Source of the DNA: a bacterium | GTDB taxonomy: Bacteria; JALSQH01 | Reading direction: 5' to 3' | Length of the DNA: 6,700 nucleotides | Assembly: GCA_026985515.1 (NCBI GenBank) | Contig: JALSQH010000247.1 | Coordinates: forward strand, 1 to 6,700 | Shown: in pieces, positions 1-6,700 of the stretch | Position numbering within the stretch: position 1 is the first letter of the stretch | Layout of the letters: each line of letters begins with the position of its first letter | Translations under genes and position numbers: made by a program | Notes under the pieces: model-generated | Told to the model about the DNA's origin: nothing | What the model saw: only the letters and a program-made list of their open reading frames with translations | Databases searched by the model: none

Positions 1-1144
1 AAAGGGGGTGGTCAGGGACTTTTCCATTTATGAAGGAGTAATGAGGTCTCACCTGAGAATGACATATGAAAAACTGGCCAGTATTTTAGTTGAAGGAAAT
101 CAGGAACTGGCAAAGGAGTACGAAAAATTTATTCCTCTTTTTAAACTCATGGAGGAACTCGCATGGATTCTGAGAAAAAGAAGAGAGGAGATTGGAAGTC
201 TCGATTTTGATCTTCCTGAGCCTGAATTTATCTTTGATGAAATGGGCAGGATTGAAAAGATCAGGAAGCTCGAAAGAAACATTGCCCATTTTATAATTGA
301 AGAGTTTATGCTCATTGCCAACAAACATGTGGCTATTTTTGTAAGTGAGAAAGGTTTTCCAATGCTCTACAGATGTCACGCTCCACCTGACGAGATGAAA
401 CTGGAATCACTTCGTGAGTTTTTGAAAATATGGGGATTTACTCTGCCCGAGAAAGTCAAGCCCAAACATCTTCAAAAAATTTTGAAAAAGGTGGAGGGAA
501 CCCCACACGAACATCTGGTAAACACCGTGATTTTGAGATCAATGATGCATGCTGAATATTCTCCGGTAAACTACGGACACTTTGGACTTGCCTTCAAGTA
601 TTATACACATTTCACAAGTCCCATCAGAAGATATCCAGACCTGATAGTTCACAGAATACTTAAGGATATCCTGCACAATAAAATGAGCGAGAGAAGGGTA
701 AAGTACTGGAAGGAAAAATTGCCAGGAATAGCAAGGCACTCATCTGAAAGAGAAAAAATTGCGGAAAAGGCGGAGAGAGAGATCGTTGAGTACAAAAAAG
801 TTGAATTTATGATGGACAAAGTGGGAGAGGAGTATGAAGGAATTGTAAGTGGAGTTTCTGGAGTGGGATTCTGGGTTGAATTGAAAAATTACTTTATTGA
901 GGGATTCGTACCTCTCTATTCACTCACAGATGATTTTTACAGATTCTCCCCAAAAACTTATTCCATAGTTGGTATGAGGAGCGGAAGGAGTTTTCAGATA
1001 GGTGATGAGGTAAAGGTTAAGGTTGTAAGAGTCGACCTGACGGAGAGACAGATTGAGTTAAATGTGGTGGGAATTGAAAGAAGAAAAAGCAAAAGGAAAA
1101 AGGCAAGGAAAAAGAGAAGAAAGAAAAAGGGAAGGAAAAAATGA
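1..1144 (+). CDS. rnr: Ribonuclease R, C-terminal part (5' end outside the window)
   Basis: RNase R is a processive 3'-to-5' exoribonuclease that degrades structured RNA in the cytoplasm. The open frame is already running at the window edge (first full codon at base 2), so the GTG at base 8 is not a real start. The cold-shock domains and the acidic metal-binding cluster of the RNB domain lie upstream and cannot be checked. What is present is the second half of the RNB domain, beginning with a [12 protein letters not shown] segment typical of RNase R and including the signature [12 protein letters not shown] (about bases 606-645). An S1 RNA-binding domain follows (about 821-1070). The last 22 residues are a basic tail with 18 Lys/Arg; lysine-rich tails are known in the RNase R family. 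The stop overlaps the dgt start (ATGA), so the two genes are probably co-translated. Family assignment is very secure. Confidence 0.96.
1127..1135 (+). promoter_or_regulatory. Ribosome binding site of dgt inside the rnr tail codons
   Basis: The purine run AAGGGAAGG ends five bases before the ATG at 1141. It is formed by the lysine/glycine codons of the RNase R tail, so the same bases code for the tail and serve as a likely Shine-Dalgarno site for the next gene. The match to AGGAGG is imperfect. The ATGA overlap suggests that translational coupling also contributes. Confidence 0.5.
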
Positions 1145-2175
1145 TAAGGGAGGAGCTGGAGAGGATAGAAGATGAAATACTTCATCCTGCTGCTGTAAGA
1201 AGCAGTAAGACTCGTGGAAGGCTGAAGGAAGAGCCGCCTCACCCATACAGAATGGCATTCCAGATTGACAGAGACAGGATAATTCACAGTAAATCGTTCA
1301 GAAGATTGAAACACAAAACCCAGGTTCTCCTTCACCCCATCGGTGATCATTACAGGACGAGGCTTACCCATACTCTCGAAGTCTCCCAAATTGCCAGAAC
1401 AATTGCAAGGGCTCTGAGATTGAATGAGGACCTCACAGAGGCCATTGCACTGGGACATGATCTGGGTCATACACCCTTTGGACACGCAGGGGAAAGTATC
1501 CTCAACGAACTCTGTCCGGGAGGATTCAAACATTATGAGCAGAGCCTTAGAGTGGTTGATCTCCTTGAAAAGAATGGGGAAGGCCTCAATCTCACCTGGG
1601 AAGTGCGTGATGGAATTTTAAAACATTCCAAGGGGAAGGGACCAATTGTTGGTCCAGGGGCTGAAAAACCTGAAACTCTGGAAGGACAGATCGTCAGAAT
1701 TTCTGACATAATTGCCTATGTGAACCACGACATAGATGATGCCATAAGAGCAGGAGTTATAAGAGAAGATATGTTGCCCCGGGATTGTGTGAAGGTTTTA
1801 GGAGAGAGATACTCTGAGAGGATAAACACAATGGTAACAGATGTGATAAATGAGACCCAAAAGAGAGATTATGAAGAAATATCACTTTCACCTGTAATGC
1901 TTGAAGTCATTGAAAAATTGAGAGATTTTCTTTTCAGAAATGTTTATGAGACAGAGGTGATGATAAGGGAATTTGTGAAGGCAAAAAAAATTTTAAAAGA
2001 GCTTTATGAATTTTACGAAAATAATGCTAAAATATTTGAGAAAGATGCGGGAAATTTCGGTGTAAAAGAGGGAAACTTAAAGAGAAGGATCTGCGATTTC
2101 ATAGCGGGAATGACAGATGAATATGCTCTATACGAGTATCAGGAATTATTCATACCTTCAAGGTGGAAACTGTGA
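1141..2175 (+). CDS. dgt: dGTPase-like deoxynucleoside triphosphate triphosphohydrolase (HD domain)
   Basis: Enzymes of this family cleave dNTPs to deoxynucleoside plus triphosphate and so tune the cytoplasmic dNTP pool. The 344 residues match the shorter dGTPase-like group in length and throughout. The N-terminal SSKTRGR segment (21-27) and [20 protein letters not shown] (43-62) are typical. The HD metal site is intact: His77 in RLTHTLE, His106-Asp107 in [12 protein letters not shown], and probably Asp189 in [31 protein letters not shown] segment (127-140) follows, where many relatives have Asn in place of Tyr132. The substrate (dGTP only, or several dNTPs) cannot be read from sequence. The start is the ATG overlapping the rnr stop; the next gene begins 11 bases after the stop. 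The gene appears intact. Confidence 0.93.
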
Positions 2176-2176
2176 T

Positions 2177-2182
2177 AGGAGG
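2177..2182 (+). promoter_or_regulatory. Strong ribosome binding site (AGGAGG) of the PilZ/AMIN gene
   Basis: A perfect AGGAGG lies directly after the dgt stop codon and four bases before the ATG at 2187. It favours this start over the in-frame ATG nine codons downstream (2214). Confidence 0.8.
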
Positions 2183-2186
2183 TTGA

Positions 2187-3452
2187 ATGCCCGGGGAAGG
2201 TAAAATAAGAAAAATGCCATTTCTGCGGGTATTTTTCAATACTTTTGACGAGTTTCTTGATGCCTATGCCCAGTATCTTTCAAAGGGTGGGATGTTCATA
2301 AAAACTCCCGTTAAATTGCAGGGTGGAGAAAAAATCAAGATTGAAATGAAATTAAAGAGTGGTCAGCCCCTGCTCAGAGGAATTGCTGAGGTGGTCTGGG
2401 AAAAGGTTGAAGGTGGAAAGACAACAGGAGTCGGAGTAAAGTTCATACAGTTAACTCCTGAAAGCCTGAAATTTGTGGAGAATGTGGTACAGAAAAAGTT
2501 GAAGGAGAAGGAGGAAAAGCAGTCTGTAGAAAAAGAAATTCTTCAGGATGAAAAAGTTCAGGAGGAGGAGATCATTGAAGAACCGGAGGTGATAGAGGAA
2601 CCTGAAGAGGTTGTGGAACCTGAGGAGGTGATAGCTCCGCCTGAAGAGGAGAGTAAGGGAGATTTCCTCGCTCCACCAGAAGAGGTTGAGGAGGTTGTGG
2701 AGGAGATTCCCCCGGAAGTGTCTGAAAAAGGGGAAAAGGAGCCAGAAAAAGAGGTAGAGAAGAGCGAGACTGTGGAGCCCGTTGATGAGTTTGCAATAGA
2801 TGAGGAAATTGCCCCCTCCCAGGGTAAGAAAAAGATTGTGCCTATAATACTGCCAATCATTCTTGCTGTGGTTGTTGCTGCAGGAGCAGGGTTCCTCTTC
2901 CTGAGAAAATCACACAAAGAGGTTCCTGTGGAGACAGCGGCGGTCAGCGGTAAGAATATTCCTTCAGGGGTAGTTCCCGGGGAGAATCTTCCAGAGGAGA
3001 ATGTTGAGAAAACTCCTGCTGTTACTCCTGTCACAGCAGAGGTGAAGAAAGAGGAGTCTGCTCAATCAACAGCAAAAGAATCATCAGGGGGAAAGAATGC
3101 AGCAAAGAGTCTCCCTGAAGCCGCTGAAACCAGGGCAGCCTCAAGAATAGTTGATATAAAAGTTGGAAATAGGGAAAGTGAAGTTATTCTGGATGGTAAA
3201 ATTGAGAAAAACAGGGTGAGAATTATAGCACTTAAAGGTGGTGTGGGAAATTATCCGAGAGTGGTGCTGAAGATAAAAATTCCACAGAGAAAGCTTGACA
3301 GATGGGTTGTGAGGGGAAAGGGAAAATTGAAACGGATAAGACTTGGGATTCACCCCCCGGAAGTGTGGCTTGTGCACGACTTTTTAACAGGAAAACATCC
3401 ACCTCGTTGCAGAATCGAAGTTAAAGATAACAGGATAATTCTCAGGTGGTAG
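2187..3452 (+). CDS. PilZ-like / transmembrane / AMIN-like domain protein
   Basis: This 421-residue protein has four parts. Residues 11-105 resemble a PilZ-type domain: LSKGGMFIKT (31-40), a hydrophobic strand ending in EVVWEKV, then TGVGVKFIQL (80-89). Residues 106-212 are a charged, acidic linker with irregular Glu/Pro repeats at 128-170. Residues 217-239 form one clear membrane helix flanked by KKK and RKSHK. After a Ser/Thr/Ala/Pro-rich spacer, residues 318-421 resemble an AMIN domain, with SRIVDIKV, YPRVVLKI, a WVVRGKGKLKRIRLGIHPPEVW segment split around 373-394, and a final hydrophobic strand. PilZ domains act in the cytoplasm and often bind cyclic di-GMP. AMIN domains of AmiC and PilQ are periplasmic and bind the cell wall. 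I infer an N-in, single-pass protein linking the two sides; the basic flanks on both sides of the helix do not decide topology alone. It has no signal peptide. It probably shares an operon with rnr and dgt. Domain calls are from pattern recognition and moderately sure. Confidence 0.72.
   Translation: MPGEGKIRKMPFLRVFFNTFDEFLDAYAQYLSKGGMFIKTPVKLQGGEKIKIEMKLKSGQPLLRGIAEVVWEKVEGGKTTGVGVKFIQLTPESLKFVENVVQKKLKEKEEKQSVEKEILQDEKVQEEEIIEEPEVIEEPEEVVEPEEVIAPPEEESKGDFLAPPEEVEEVVEEIPPEVSEKGEKEPEKEVEKSETVEPVDEFAIDEEIAPSQGKKKIVPIILPIILAVVVAAGAGFLFLRKSHKEVPVETAAVSGKNIPSGVVPGENLPEENVEKTPAVTPVTAEVKKEESAQSTAKESSGGKNAAKSLPEAAETRAASRIVDIKVGNRESEVILDGKIEKNRVRIIALKGGVGNYPRVVLKIKIPQRKLDRWVVRGKGKLKRIRLGIHPPEVWLVHDFLTGKHPPRCRIEVKDNRIILRW
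2569..2697 (+). repeat. Imperfect Glu/Pro coding repeats in the linker
   Basis: This stretch codes for alternating acidic and Pro-containing units (EEPEVIEEPEEVVEPEEV, then APPEEE and APPEEVEEVVEE). At DNA level GAGGTGATAG occurs twice about 37 bases apart, and CCTGAAGAGG also recurs. The units vary in length and are too diverged to be a simple tandem array. They probably form an extended, disordered tether between the PilZ-like domain and the membrane. Confidence 0.55.
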
Positions 3453-3459
3453 AGAAAAG

Positions 3460-3533
3460 CGCCCCCGGCAGGATTCGAACCTGCGACACCGGGATTAGGA
3501 ATCCCGTGCTCTATCCTCCTGAGCTACGAGGGC
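3460..3533 (-). tRNA. tRNA-Arg (anticodon CCU, reads AGG)
   Basis: Read on the minus strand, 74 bases fold into a full cloverleaf. The 7-bp acceptor stem is GCCCTCG with CGGGGGC, containing one G-U pair. The D stem is GCTC/GAGC with a 9-base loop. The anticodon stem is CGGGA/TCCCG with loop TTCCTAA, placing CCT at the anticodon (plus-strand bases 3497-3499). A 5-base variable loop follows, then the T stem GCAGG/CCTGC with loop TTCGAAT. The discriminator base is G and no CCA is encoded, so CCA must be added after transcription. It lies 7 bases from the stop of the PilZ/AMIN gene and is antisense to the surrounding genes. AGG is one of the two dominant Arg codons here, so this is probably a heavily used tRNA. 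Confidence 0.96.
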
Positions 3534-3575: not shown

Positions 3576-4532
3576 GTGAAAATAGTTTTTCTTGATGCAG
3601 CAACTCTTGGGAATGACATTGATTTCAGCATCTTTTATGATTTAGGAGAGGTGGTTCTCCATGAACTTACTGGTAAAGAAGAAACAGCGGAAAAGATCTC
3701 TGATGCAGATGTTGTGGTCACAAACAAAGTTGTCATTGGTGAGGATGAACTTAAAAATGCTGAGAATCTCAAACTAATAGTCGTTGCAGCAACAGGTTAT
3801 AACAATATAGATATTGAGTCTGCAAAAAGAAGGGGGATTGCTGTTTCAAATGTAAGGGGTTATTCCACCGAGAGTGTTGTACAGCACACCTTTGCCATGC
3901 TCTTCTACCTGCTTCACCATCTTCGCAGTTACGACGATTTTGTGAAAAGCGGGAAATACAGCGAATGGAAAATGTTCACGAATCTTGAATATCCCTTTCA
4001 TGAGTTGAGGGAAATGAGATGGGGTATAATTGGTCTTGGCAATATAGGAAGAAAGGTGGCTGAAAAGGCCTCGGTTTTTGTTAAGGAAGTTGTGTACTAC
4101 TCCACTTCCGGGGTTATCAGAGATGAACCGGTTAAAAGGGTGGAGCTTGACACCCTTCTTGGAGAATCTGACATCGTTTCCATTCATGCTCCCCTCAATG
4201 AGAGGACCAGAAATTTAATTGACTATCCGGAACTGAAAAAAATGAAGAGGTCCGCAATCTTGCTGAATCTGGGAAGAGGTGGAATTGTGAATGAAGCTGC
4301 CCTTGCAAGAGCCATTGATGAGGGAATTATCTGCTGTGCGGGAACAGATGTGCTTGAAAGGGAACCTCCACCTCCATCCAGCCCCCTTTTAAAGATAAAA
4401 CACAGAGACAGGATACTGATAACGCCTCATATTGCATGGGCTTCTGTTGAGGCAAGGGAAAGGCTTGTTAACGAGATTTACGACATCATAATTAAATTTC
4501 AGAGGGGTGAATTCAAAAACAGGGTGGCATAA
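3576..4532 (+). CDS. D-2-hydroxyacid dehydrogenase, glycerate dehydrogenase/hydroxypyruvate reductase type
   Basis: Members of this family reversibly reduce a 2-keto acid to a D-2-hydroxyacid with NAD(P)H in the cytoplasm. The 318 residues match the family length. The start is GTG; the N-terminus MKIVFLDAATLGNDIDFS matches the hydroxypyruvate reductase-like subgroup. The substrate-domain motif ATGYNNIDI (72-80) is followed by the dinucleotide-binding GLGNIG (153-158). The catalytic trio is present: Arg234 in NLGRGGIVNE, Glu263 in LEREPPP, and His285 in ITPHIAWASVEAR. After the second beta strand the sequence is VVYYSTSG, without the acidic residue that usually selects NAD, so cofactor preference is open. 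Hydroxypyruvate/glycerate is the likeliest substrate, but glyoxylate or another keto acid is possible. The TAA stop overlaps the ATG of the debranching enzyme by one base, implying coupled translation. Confidence 0.88.
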   Translation: MKIVFLDAATLGNDIDFSIFYDLGEVVLHELTGKEETAEKISDADVVVTNKVVIGEDELKNAENLKLIVVAATGYNNIDIESAKRRGIAVSNVRGYSTESVVQHTFAMLFYLLHHLRSYDDFVKSGKYSEWKMFTNLEYPFHELREMRWGIIGLGNIGRKVAEKASVFVKEVVYYSTSGVIRDEPVKRVELDTLLGESDIVSIHAPLNERTRNLIDYPELKKMKRSAILLNLGRGGIVNEAALARAIDEGIICCAGTDVLEREPPPPSSPLLKIKHRDRILITPHIAWASVEARERLVNEIYDIIIKFQRGEFKNRVA

Positions 4533-6493
4533 TGGTAAGGGAAGGAGAATGGATTTTAACCTCCGGTACGGGCGGATACGCCCTTGGCACCGGTAACTTT
4601 CTGAATGAGAGGAAGTACCACTCGCTTCTCGTGGCTCAGTGCTGTGGGAATAGAATAAATGTTGTTCCCACCCTGGAGGAGAAGATTTATCTTTGCGGTG
4701 GAGAAATCTATCTTGATTCCAACCACTATCCCTCCGTTATCTATCCCGATGGATGGCAACGGGTAATTGAAAACTGGCTCAGGCCCTATCCAGGTGCCAT
4801 TTTCCAGATTGCTGAGGGTATTCAAATAATAAAAGAAGTGAGGATGGTGGAGGGAGAAGATATCACCATTGTGTCATACAGGAATCTTTCCGGTGAACCT
4901 CTGAAGATGGAAATAAGGCCAAAATTTGCTCTGAGGAACCATCATTTTCTGAATTCACCCGGATCCCTTGATGGTATCCATTTTACAGTTGTGGAAGAGG
5001 AACATGGGATTCTGGTAAGAAGGGAAGATACGGGGATATGCGGCTTTGTTGCAATTCCTGAAGGGGAATTTTCACAGGAGAGATTGATCTACAGAAATGT
5101 GCAGTACCCTGTGGAAATGGCAAGGGGTTACGATTCTGTGGAGGACCTATTTTCTCCCGGGAAATTCTCCCTTGTTATTGACCCGGGAGAGGAAAAAAAT
5201 GTGATTATATCTGCAAATAAGATAAAAAACCACCAAGAGGTTATTTCACTGGCAAAGAATAGGTATGCACCATATCCGAGGCCATACTTCATGAAAAGTG
5301 GAAAAGCAATAACAAAAGGTGAGTACCTGTTTGATCTTGTGGAGTACCGCCAGTTGCTTCCCCTTATGGGTAAAGACTTTCTCTGCTGCGGCAATGATCT
5401 GGTTGCGGGATACCCATGGTTCTTTACATGGGGAAGGGACGCTATGATTTCCCTTGGAGGGGTTAAGTACCTTGAAGGTGGAGAGGAATTCGGAAGGAGG
5501 GTTTTGAAGCATTACGCTGAGAAAATGAAAAACGGGATAATTCCCAATGTGATTTACGAGGATGGAAGTGGTAATTACGAGACTGTAGATGCCTCACTCT
5601 GGTTTGTAGTGAGAACAGGGGAATATATGAAATATGAATACCTTGAAGAAGGAATAAAATGGGTTGAGGAAGTTATCCATAACTACATCTGCAACAGGAA
5701 TCTCAGATTTGTGTTAGACGCTGATGGATTGATAAAGATAAGGGATTGTTCAACCTCCCTAACCTGGATGGATGCAAGGATTTATGATCTGCCTGTTACT
5801 TCAAGGTGTGGAAAACCGGTGGAAATTGAGGCTCTCTGGATCAATGCCCTTGAAACTTACAGGAAGATGTTGAACGAAAATAGATATCTGAAAAGGAAGG
5901 TTGACAGAAAGGATGAATTAACACCTGAGAAGGTTGAAGAAGTACTGCAGAGGGCAAGAAGCTCTATTTCAAAACTCTTTGATCCAGATACAGGGGAGGT
6001 TTTTGACAGACTTGACACAGAAGATAGACCTGTAAGGGAGACCAGACCAAATATGGTGATTGCCGCCTCACTTCCCTTTGATGTTTTTCCCGAGGAAATT
6101 AACAGAAAAGTTATTGAGATCACACAGAGAGAACTCCTCACCCCCTATGGCCTCAGAAGTCTTTCTCCAGAATCTCCTTCATTCAGAAGAAAGTATGCAG
6201 GAAATCAGAGGCAGAGGGACCTTGCATATCATCAGGGCAGTGTCTGGCCCTATTTACTTATCTTTTATGCCAGATTGCTCCAGAAGGTTTACAGAAATGA
6301 AAGGGAAAGACTGAAAGAAATGCTTGAGGATCTTGTGTGGATATTCAGAGAGAAGGTAAGAAGAGGAGAATACGCATCCATTCCTGAGCTGTACGATGGG
6401 GAAGAACCTTCGGTTCCCCGCGGCGCTCCTGCCCAGGCATGGAGCGTTTTTGCCCTGATTGAAATTGAAGAGATGATAAGGAGGCTCATTTGA
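4532..6493 (+). CDS. Glycogen debranching enzyme (amylo-alpha-1,6-glucosidase, GDE_N + GDE_C)
   Basis: This enzyme hydrolyses alpha-1,6 branch points of glycogen-like glucans in the cytoplasm. The 653 residues match the single-polypeptide bacterial/archaeal type without the GH13 transferase half of eukaryotic debranching enzyme. The N-terminal beta-rich domain starts with EWILTSGTGGYALGTGNFLNERKYHSLLVA (split about 6-35). The C-terminal (alpha/alpha)6 domain carries GYPWFFTWGRDAMISL (293-308), NYETVDASLWFV (348-359), TWMDAR (411-416), GKPVEIEALW (427-436), RPNMVIAASLP (505-515), RDLAYHQGSVWPY (562-574) and PRGAPAQAWS (629-638). The usual Cys in the last motif is Ala632. Acid residues in VDASLW and WMDAR are candidates for catalysis, but I cannot assign them firmly. 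The start ATG overlaps the upstream stop, with AGGGTGG (4521-4527) as ribosome site. It overlaps the following glycosyltransferase by four bases. Intact. Confidence 0.93.
   Translation: MVREGEWILTSGTGGYALGTGNFLNERKYHSLLVAQCCGNRINVVPTLEEKIYLCGGEIYLDSNHYPSVIYPDGWQRVIENWLRPYPGAIFQIAEGIQIIKEVRMVEGEDITIVSYRNLSGEPLKMEIRPKFALRNHHFLNSPGSLDGIHFTVVEEEHGILVRREDTGICGFVAIPEGEFSQERLIYRNVQYPVEMARGYDSVEDLFSPGKFSLVIDPGEEKNVIISANKIKNHQEVISLAKNRYAPYPRPYFMKSGKAITKGEYLFDLVEYRQLLPLMGKDFLCCGNDLVAGYPWFFTWGRDAMISLGGVKYLEGGEEFGRRVLKHYAEKMKNGIIPNVIYEDGSGNYETVDASLWFVVRTGEYMKYEYLEEGIKWVEEVIHNYICNRNLRFVLDADGLIKIRDCSTSLTWMDARIYDLPVTSRCGKPVEIEALWINALETYRKMLNENRYLKRKVDRKDELTPEKVEEVLQRARSSISKLFDPDTGEVFDRLDTEDRPVRETRPNMVIAASLPFDVFPEEINRKVIEITQRELLTPYGLRSLSPESPSFRRKYAGNQRQRDLAYHQGSVWPYLLIFYARLLQKVYRNERERLKEMLEDLVWIFREKVRRGEYASIPELYDGEEPSVPRGAPAQAWSVFALIEIEEMIRRLI
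6479..6484 (+). promoter_or_regulatory. Ribosome binding site choosing a TTG start for the glycosyltransferase
   Basis: A perfect AGGAGG inside the last codons of the debranching gene lies five bases before TTG at 6490, eleven before GTG at 6496 and seventeen before ATG at 6502. The spacing best fits TTG, which also gives the family-like start MRVVMLSWEFPP. Confidence 0.7.
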
Positions 6494-6700
6494 GAGTGGT
6501 GATGCTATCATGGGAGTTTCCCCCTCTCCTTGCGGGGGGGATGGGGATGGCATGTTACGGGATGAGCAGAGCTCTTCTTGAAATGGGAGTTGAAATTGAT
6601 CTGATTCTTCCAACAGAAGAAGATGTGTATTTCCCTCTCAGGAAACCAGAAGATGTTGATATCCTGCCTGTAGAGAGTCCAGGTGGAAGAGTTATTGAAG
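6490..6700 (+). CDS. GT4/glycogen-synthase-like glycosyltransferase, N-terminus (3' end outside the window)
   Basis: About 70 residues are visible. MRVVMLSWEFPPLLAGGMGM followed by ACYGMSRALLEMGVEIDLILP is the typical first beta strand, glycine-rich loop and helix of GT-B fold, group 1 glycosyltransferases. The phrase GG-G-ACYG is most like the subgroup annotated as glycogen synthase-like enzymes, which use a nucleotide sugar to extend or start alpha-glucans. TTG at 6490 is the likely start and overlaps the TGA of the debranching enzyme (TTGA), so translation is probably coupled. ATG at 6502 would lose the first four residues. Context supports a role in glycogen metabolism. The nucleotide-sugar site lies beyond the window, so donor and acceptor are unknown. 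Confidence 0.85.
   Translation, partial: MRVVMLSWEFPPLLAGGMGMACYGMSRALLEMGVEIDLILPTEEDVYFPLRKPEDVDILPVESPGGRVIE

Follow-up and report, generated by a model that had tools for sequence, protein, structure and literature searches.

A protein family joining PilZ to AMIN through one membrane helix, and its possible role as a scaffold of type IV-filament machines

AmiC and PilQ are the two classical AMIN proteins. In the type IV pilus, the secretin PilQ is brought to the peptidoglycan of septa and poles by its AMIN domains (PMC10653833), while in flagella AMIN is used by PflA (PMC11870540) and by FliO, which provides a precedent in flagellar export (PMC12403147). In type II secretion systems (T2SS), a single-span scaffold, GspB/OutB, ties the machine to membrane and wall (PMC9239104). 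Here we analyzed a bacterial protein that combines PilZ with AMIN in one polypeptide, encoded in a DNA stretch of 6,700 nucleotides (hereafter, the window), which is contig C247 of a 2.36-Mb draft genome, 97.6% complete. Both domains are already known, and their fusion appears to be undescribed; we found no description of it in a literature that was thin on subscription papers and lacked the main 2008 AMIN survey, so an earlier mention is possible. Papers in that literature that name both PilZ and AMIN did so in unrelated connections.

The open reading frame is a real gene (Table 1). It starts 11 nt after the stop codon of dgt, on the same strand, and stops short of a tRNA gene on the opposite strand. 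In the one sister genome available from the same phylum (JALTID01), the gene order is identical, i.e., rnr, dgt, the PilZ–AMIN gene, and a 2-hydroxyacid dehydrogenase gene, and the orthologue has the same layout as the window protein. The two orthologues differ at 76% of synonymous but only 31% of nonsynonymous sites, which is the pattern of a gene under purifying selection. Protein identity between them amounts to 73% in PilZ, the most conserved part, 57% in AMIN, and 30% in the spacer. As for the rest of the window, the tRNA gene, a convergent tRNA-Arg with anticodon CCT, occupies positions 3459–3533 (−), an archaeal-type glycogen debranching enzyme (GDE_N/GDE_C) is encoded at 4532–6493 (+), and the start of a starch-synthase-type glycosyltransferase follows it at 6490–6700 (+); the latter two are likely a glycogen gene pair.

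Table 1. Features of the PilZ–AMIN gene, its protein, and its upstream neighbors (positions within the window; residues of the 421-aa protein)
Feature	Position	Strand	Basis
RNase R (rnr), 3' part	2..1144	+	TIGR02063, E 1.2e-131; upstream neighbor
dGTP triphosphohydrolase (dgt)	1141..2175	+	NF002327, above cut-off; directly upstream
Shine-Dalgarno-like AGGAGG	2177..2182	+	Sequence; 4 nt upstream of ATG
PilZ–tether–TM–spacer–AMIN gene (421 aa)	2187..3452	+	ORF, orthologue, substitution test
PilZ domain, degenerate, residues 18–97	2238..2477	+	Pfam PF07238, motif alignment
Acidic low-complexity tether, residues 116–219	2532..2843	+	Composition
Single transmembrane helix, residues 220–238	2844..2900	+	Hydropathy
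Variable spacer, residues 239–317, inferred periplasmic	2901..3137	+	30% identity to orthologue
AMIN domain, residues 318–421	3138..3449	+	Profile comparison, predicted structure, invariant residues

By profile comparison, by its match to PilQ, and by its predicted fold, the C-terminal domain is identified as AMIN, which bears out what the initial annotation had proposed for this end. A direct Pfam scan of the window protein returned no PF11741 match even at E 10, and PHROGs and NCBIfam scans returned no AMIN match either. The AMIN end of a homologue with the same architecture from Candidatus Dadabacteria (G049), on the other hand, lies directly above the Pfam cut-off (E 4.1e-8), in the same frame. 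When profiles were compared with hhalign, the C-terminal end of 11 family members matched AMIN domains from other genomes at 98.8% probability (E 1e-16), a value that had been 74.9% with two members and 98.7% with six, whereas for the PilZ end, which served as negative control, the value against the AMIN profile was 0.1%. Searching the Protein Data Bank (PDB) with the profile of the C-terminal end (hmmsearch) yielded Myxococcus xanthus PilQ (1.4e-8) and, with a profile built from fewer members, Escherichia coli AmiC (3.2e-4); in a single BLASTP comparison, this end also matched the AMIN of PilQ from its own genome (2e-5). Four residues (R385, H389, V396, and D398) are invariant in 11/11 members.

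The predicted structure points the same way. An AlphaFold model of the AMIN end from three sequences reached a pLDDT of 92; whole-protein prediction from a single sequence was uninformative (pLDDT 42). When the AMIN model was aligned with VIA-align, the best solved neighbors were AmiC (Z 11.1), a Synechocystis protein (Z 10.3), and PilQ of two species (Z 9.7–10.3), so that AmiC and three PilQ entries are among the five best (Z 9.7–11.1). The AMIN-like domain of PflA followed at Z 7.4, and the first unrelated fold at Z 7.0. Foldseek alone was indecisive, with a best E of 0.097 and small heat-shock proteins intermixed; its highest probability (0.96) went to PilQ 4aqz.

At the opposite end, the PilZ-like domain that had been noticed from the letters alone was recovered by PF07238 (E 9.7e-9; 35.9 bits versus a cut-off of 22.5). 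The PilZ paralogue model TIGR02266 matched this end over nearly its full length (E 1.3e-15) with 57.3 bits, which does not reach its curated cut-off of 68.7 bits, and it matched 6/6 family members tested. Both c-di-GMP motifs are lost from the domain. In place of RxxxR, K9 replaces the second arginine and no arginine stands four residues before it, while [DN]xSxxG is replaced by YLSKGG, with Y for D/N; in the sister orthologue, T and H are found at those places. Conversely, among the nine members outside this phylum, [DN]xSxxG is kept in 9/9 and RxxxR in 7/9. The idea that the window protein senses c-di-GMP is thus not supported, since its motifs are gone both here and in the nearest orthologue. 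Because PilZ is nevertheless the best conserved part, selection is likely for something other than c-di-GMP binding, and judging from the sequence, the domain is probably protein-binding rather than c-di-GMP-sensing. In a PDB sequence search, the sole PilZ chains matched by the PilZ end were those of Xanthomonas PilZ (3dsg, 4f48, 7lkq, and 3cnr); the match is weak, and we treat it as a lead, not as proof.

Between the two domains, the 104 residues of the tether include 40 D/E versus 10 K/R. The membrane helix stands out clearly in hydropathy (2.76), the next most hydrophobic stretch scoring 0.62, and this single-span layout agrees with the earlier expectation that the two ends lie on opposite sides of the membrane. 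The domain types suggest an N-in/C-out orientation, as does a slight positive-inside bias: counting 15 flanking residues on each side and summing over 11 members, 35 basic residues fall inside versus 21 outside, and the window protein by itself has 3 versus 3. Matches to MapZ, a streptococcal division protein (E 4e-4), and to FliL were set aside as products of tether and helix composition.

The domain order first read in the window protein, i.e., PilZ, low-complexity tether, one helix, spacer, and AMIN, recurs across a family from 11 genomes in four phyla. Two members belong to the window's phylum (G000 and G001) and one is the Dadabacteria homologue; three come from three families of one small phylum (G034, G179, and G386), and five from one large phylum (G083, G616, G453, G530, and G521, the last of them Thermoanaerobaculia). 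In a survey of 386 diverse genomes, the architecture was present in at least six, a lower bound because only the best few candidates per genome were scored. The architecture is thus widespread but patchy. One further candidate (L052) was rejected as a member, having PilZ and the helix but no AMIN. A protein of another genome (G375; L053:1471-3324) has the order PilZ, tether, one helix, and PEGA, and this swap of PEGA for AMIN on the same PilZ–membrane chassis suggests a modular class.

The surroundings of the gene differ between phyla. In the three genomes of the small phylum, a type II secretion operon ends with it, behind gspK, gspL, gspM, and a gspN-like gene; the gspN-like gene directly precedes it in G179 and G386, and one extra gene lies between them in G034. 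Further upstream are gspE, F, and G, where the locus extends that far. Some of these gsp assignments were made by Pfam and others by operon position and reading of the translation. Such operon membership was seen neither in the window nor in the large phylum, where the loci read showed varying contexts and no T2SS link. In the window itself, pil and gsp genes are absent and the neighbors are rnr, dgt, the tRNA, and sugar genes, which give no clue to the machine that the protein serves. The window's genome, however, encodes a type II secretion operon from gspC to gspJ, with a secretin lacking AMIN, as well as the type IV pilus genes pilB, pilT, pilC, and pilNOPQ, with AMIN domains in PilQ. The link to pilus-type machinery drawn in the initial annotation is therefore sustained in part, by the T2SS operons of three genomes and by the machine genes of the host, and finds no backing in pil genes within the window.

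Other loci deserve mention. The linkage to rnr is common to the window's phylum, where dgt lies between, and to a Dadabacteria contig (L078:3841-7446, L006), where the PilZ–AMIN gene stands directly behind rnr and is followed by mutS. The sister contig carries exbB and exbD upstream of its rnr gene. Elsewhere in the window's genome, an AMIN–Amidase_3 protein with a long N-terminal region (L084:2-1705) is likely the genome's AmiC-type amidase, and a response-regulator receiver–PilZ fusion (L002:211-921) adjoins genes that were recognized by eye as START-like and MlaD-like.

We propose, tentatively and at somewhat below an even chance, that the window protein is bitopic, spans the inner membrane, and serves as a scaffold for a type IV-filament machine, either a T2SS or a type IV pilus. 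PilZ would dock in the cytoplasm on a component of the machine, the most plausible candidates being GspE/PilB, its assembly ATPase, and the GspL/PilM platform; the chain would then cross the inner membrane by way of the long acidic tether and the single helix; and AMIN would bind peptidoglycan in the periplasm, or the machine near the wall, such that the machine is held or positioned. In the window's lineage, c-di-GMP binding by the PilZ end has probably been lost, while c-di-GMP could gate the same scaffold in those relatives whose PilZ retains the motifs. We infer the topology, the partners, the peptidoglycan binding, and the use of the same kind of machine as in the T2SS-linked relatives. 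This proposal is plausible because PilQ recruitment by AMIN, the GspB/OutB anchor, and an AMIN-bearing FliO are known. Counting for it are the AMIN identity, the T2SS operon position in three genomes, the T2SS and type IV pilus genes of the window's genome, and the conservation of PilZ; counting against it are the gene's neighbors in the window, the large phylum without a T2SS link, the weak PDB match of the PilZ end, and the slightness of the positive-inside bias.

AMIN alone does not pick the machine, since it also occurs in amidases, in flagellar FliO, and in PflA, and other roles were therefore weighed. In cell division or wall growth, AMIN would go to septal peptidoglycan while PilZ either regulated the amidase or recruited a division or synthesis protein from the cytoplasm. 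This would fit the AMIN of AmiC, a septal targeting domain and the top structural neighbor (Z 11.1), the AMIN–Amidase_3 protein encoded in the same genome, and the weak MapZ match of tether and helix (E 4e-4), which is likely compositional. However, none of the neighbors in the loci read was recognized as a division gene, and the position within a T2SS operon in three genomes also argues against such a role, which we judge unlikely. Equally, the protein might be an adaptor for another envelope system, for instance a Tol-type system or the export of flagellar proteins or exopolysaccharide. Flagella do use AMIN, as seen in FliO (PMC12403147) and PflA (PMC11870540), the ExbB/ExbD genes are found ahead of rnr in the sister contig, and the gene's contexts vary from phylum to phylum; yet genes for flagellar or polysaccharide export were not recognized beside it in the loci read, and rnr and dgt stand between it and exbBD. 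An adaptor of this sort seems improbable to us.

A receptor that relays the c-di-GMP level through the membrane to wall or pilus machinery appears very unlikely for the window protein. PilZ has the classical fold of a c-di-GMP receptor, seven GGDEF domains are encoded in the window's genome, and other members mostly keep the binding motifs. Against this, the window protein and its orthologue have lost both motifs while the rest of PilZ is 73% identical, and one helix amid long flexible stretches would presumably make a poor signal conductor.

Returning to the scaffold, PilZ–TM–AMIN proteins in general could be an undescribed, widespread accessory subunit of T2SS and type IV pilus machines, in which one polypeptide ties the cytoplasmic ATPase to peptidoglycan with or without c-di-GMP control, the window's phylum having lost the c-di-GMP input and kept the coupling; this wider proposal we regard as possible but rather doubtful. 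The family is a conserved fusion of modules from opposite ends of pilus and T2SS machines, PilZ at the ATPase and AMIN at the wall. If the proposal is true, it would provide a direct physical route tying a cytoplasmic regulator to peptidoglycan and make the placement of such machines in the envelope of poorly studied phyla testable.

Among described proteins, PilQ, the type IVa pilus secretin (M. xanthus 3jc8; Neisseria meningitidis 4aqz/4av2), has AMIN domains of the same predicted fold as the C-terminal domain here (Z 9.7–10.3), but the window protein has no secretin domain and is a membrane protein that begins with PilZ and ends with AMIN. The AMIN of AmiC (4bin) aligns over 95 residues, with a profile E of 3.2e-4; the window protein differs in lacking an amidase domain and in being membrane-anchored, whereas AmiC is secreted. 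At the PilZ end, TIGR02266 covers this end only, and the weakly matching type IV pilus PilZ of Xanthomonas likewise lacks the c-di-GMP motifs but is a stand-alone cytoplasmic protein without tether, helix, or AMIN. The PilZ–TM–PEGA protein of G375 has the N-terminal half, tether, and helix of the window protein, with PEGA instead of AMIN outside. Two further systems would work alike, a comparison that claims no homology in the case of GspB/OutB. This single-span inner-membrane wall anchor of the T2SS (PMC9239104) carries a periplasmic HR domain and lacks PilZ; in the window protein, sequence and model identify the domain outside as AMIN. AMIN-bearing FliO (PMC12403147) crosses the membrane with one helix, its AMIN lying outside and a small beta domain inside; in this flagellar protein, AMIN is N-terminal and the FliO core is cytoplasmic, whereas in the window protein AMIN is C-terminal.
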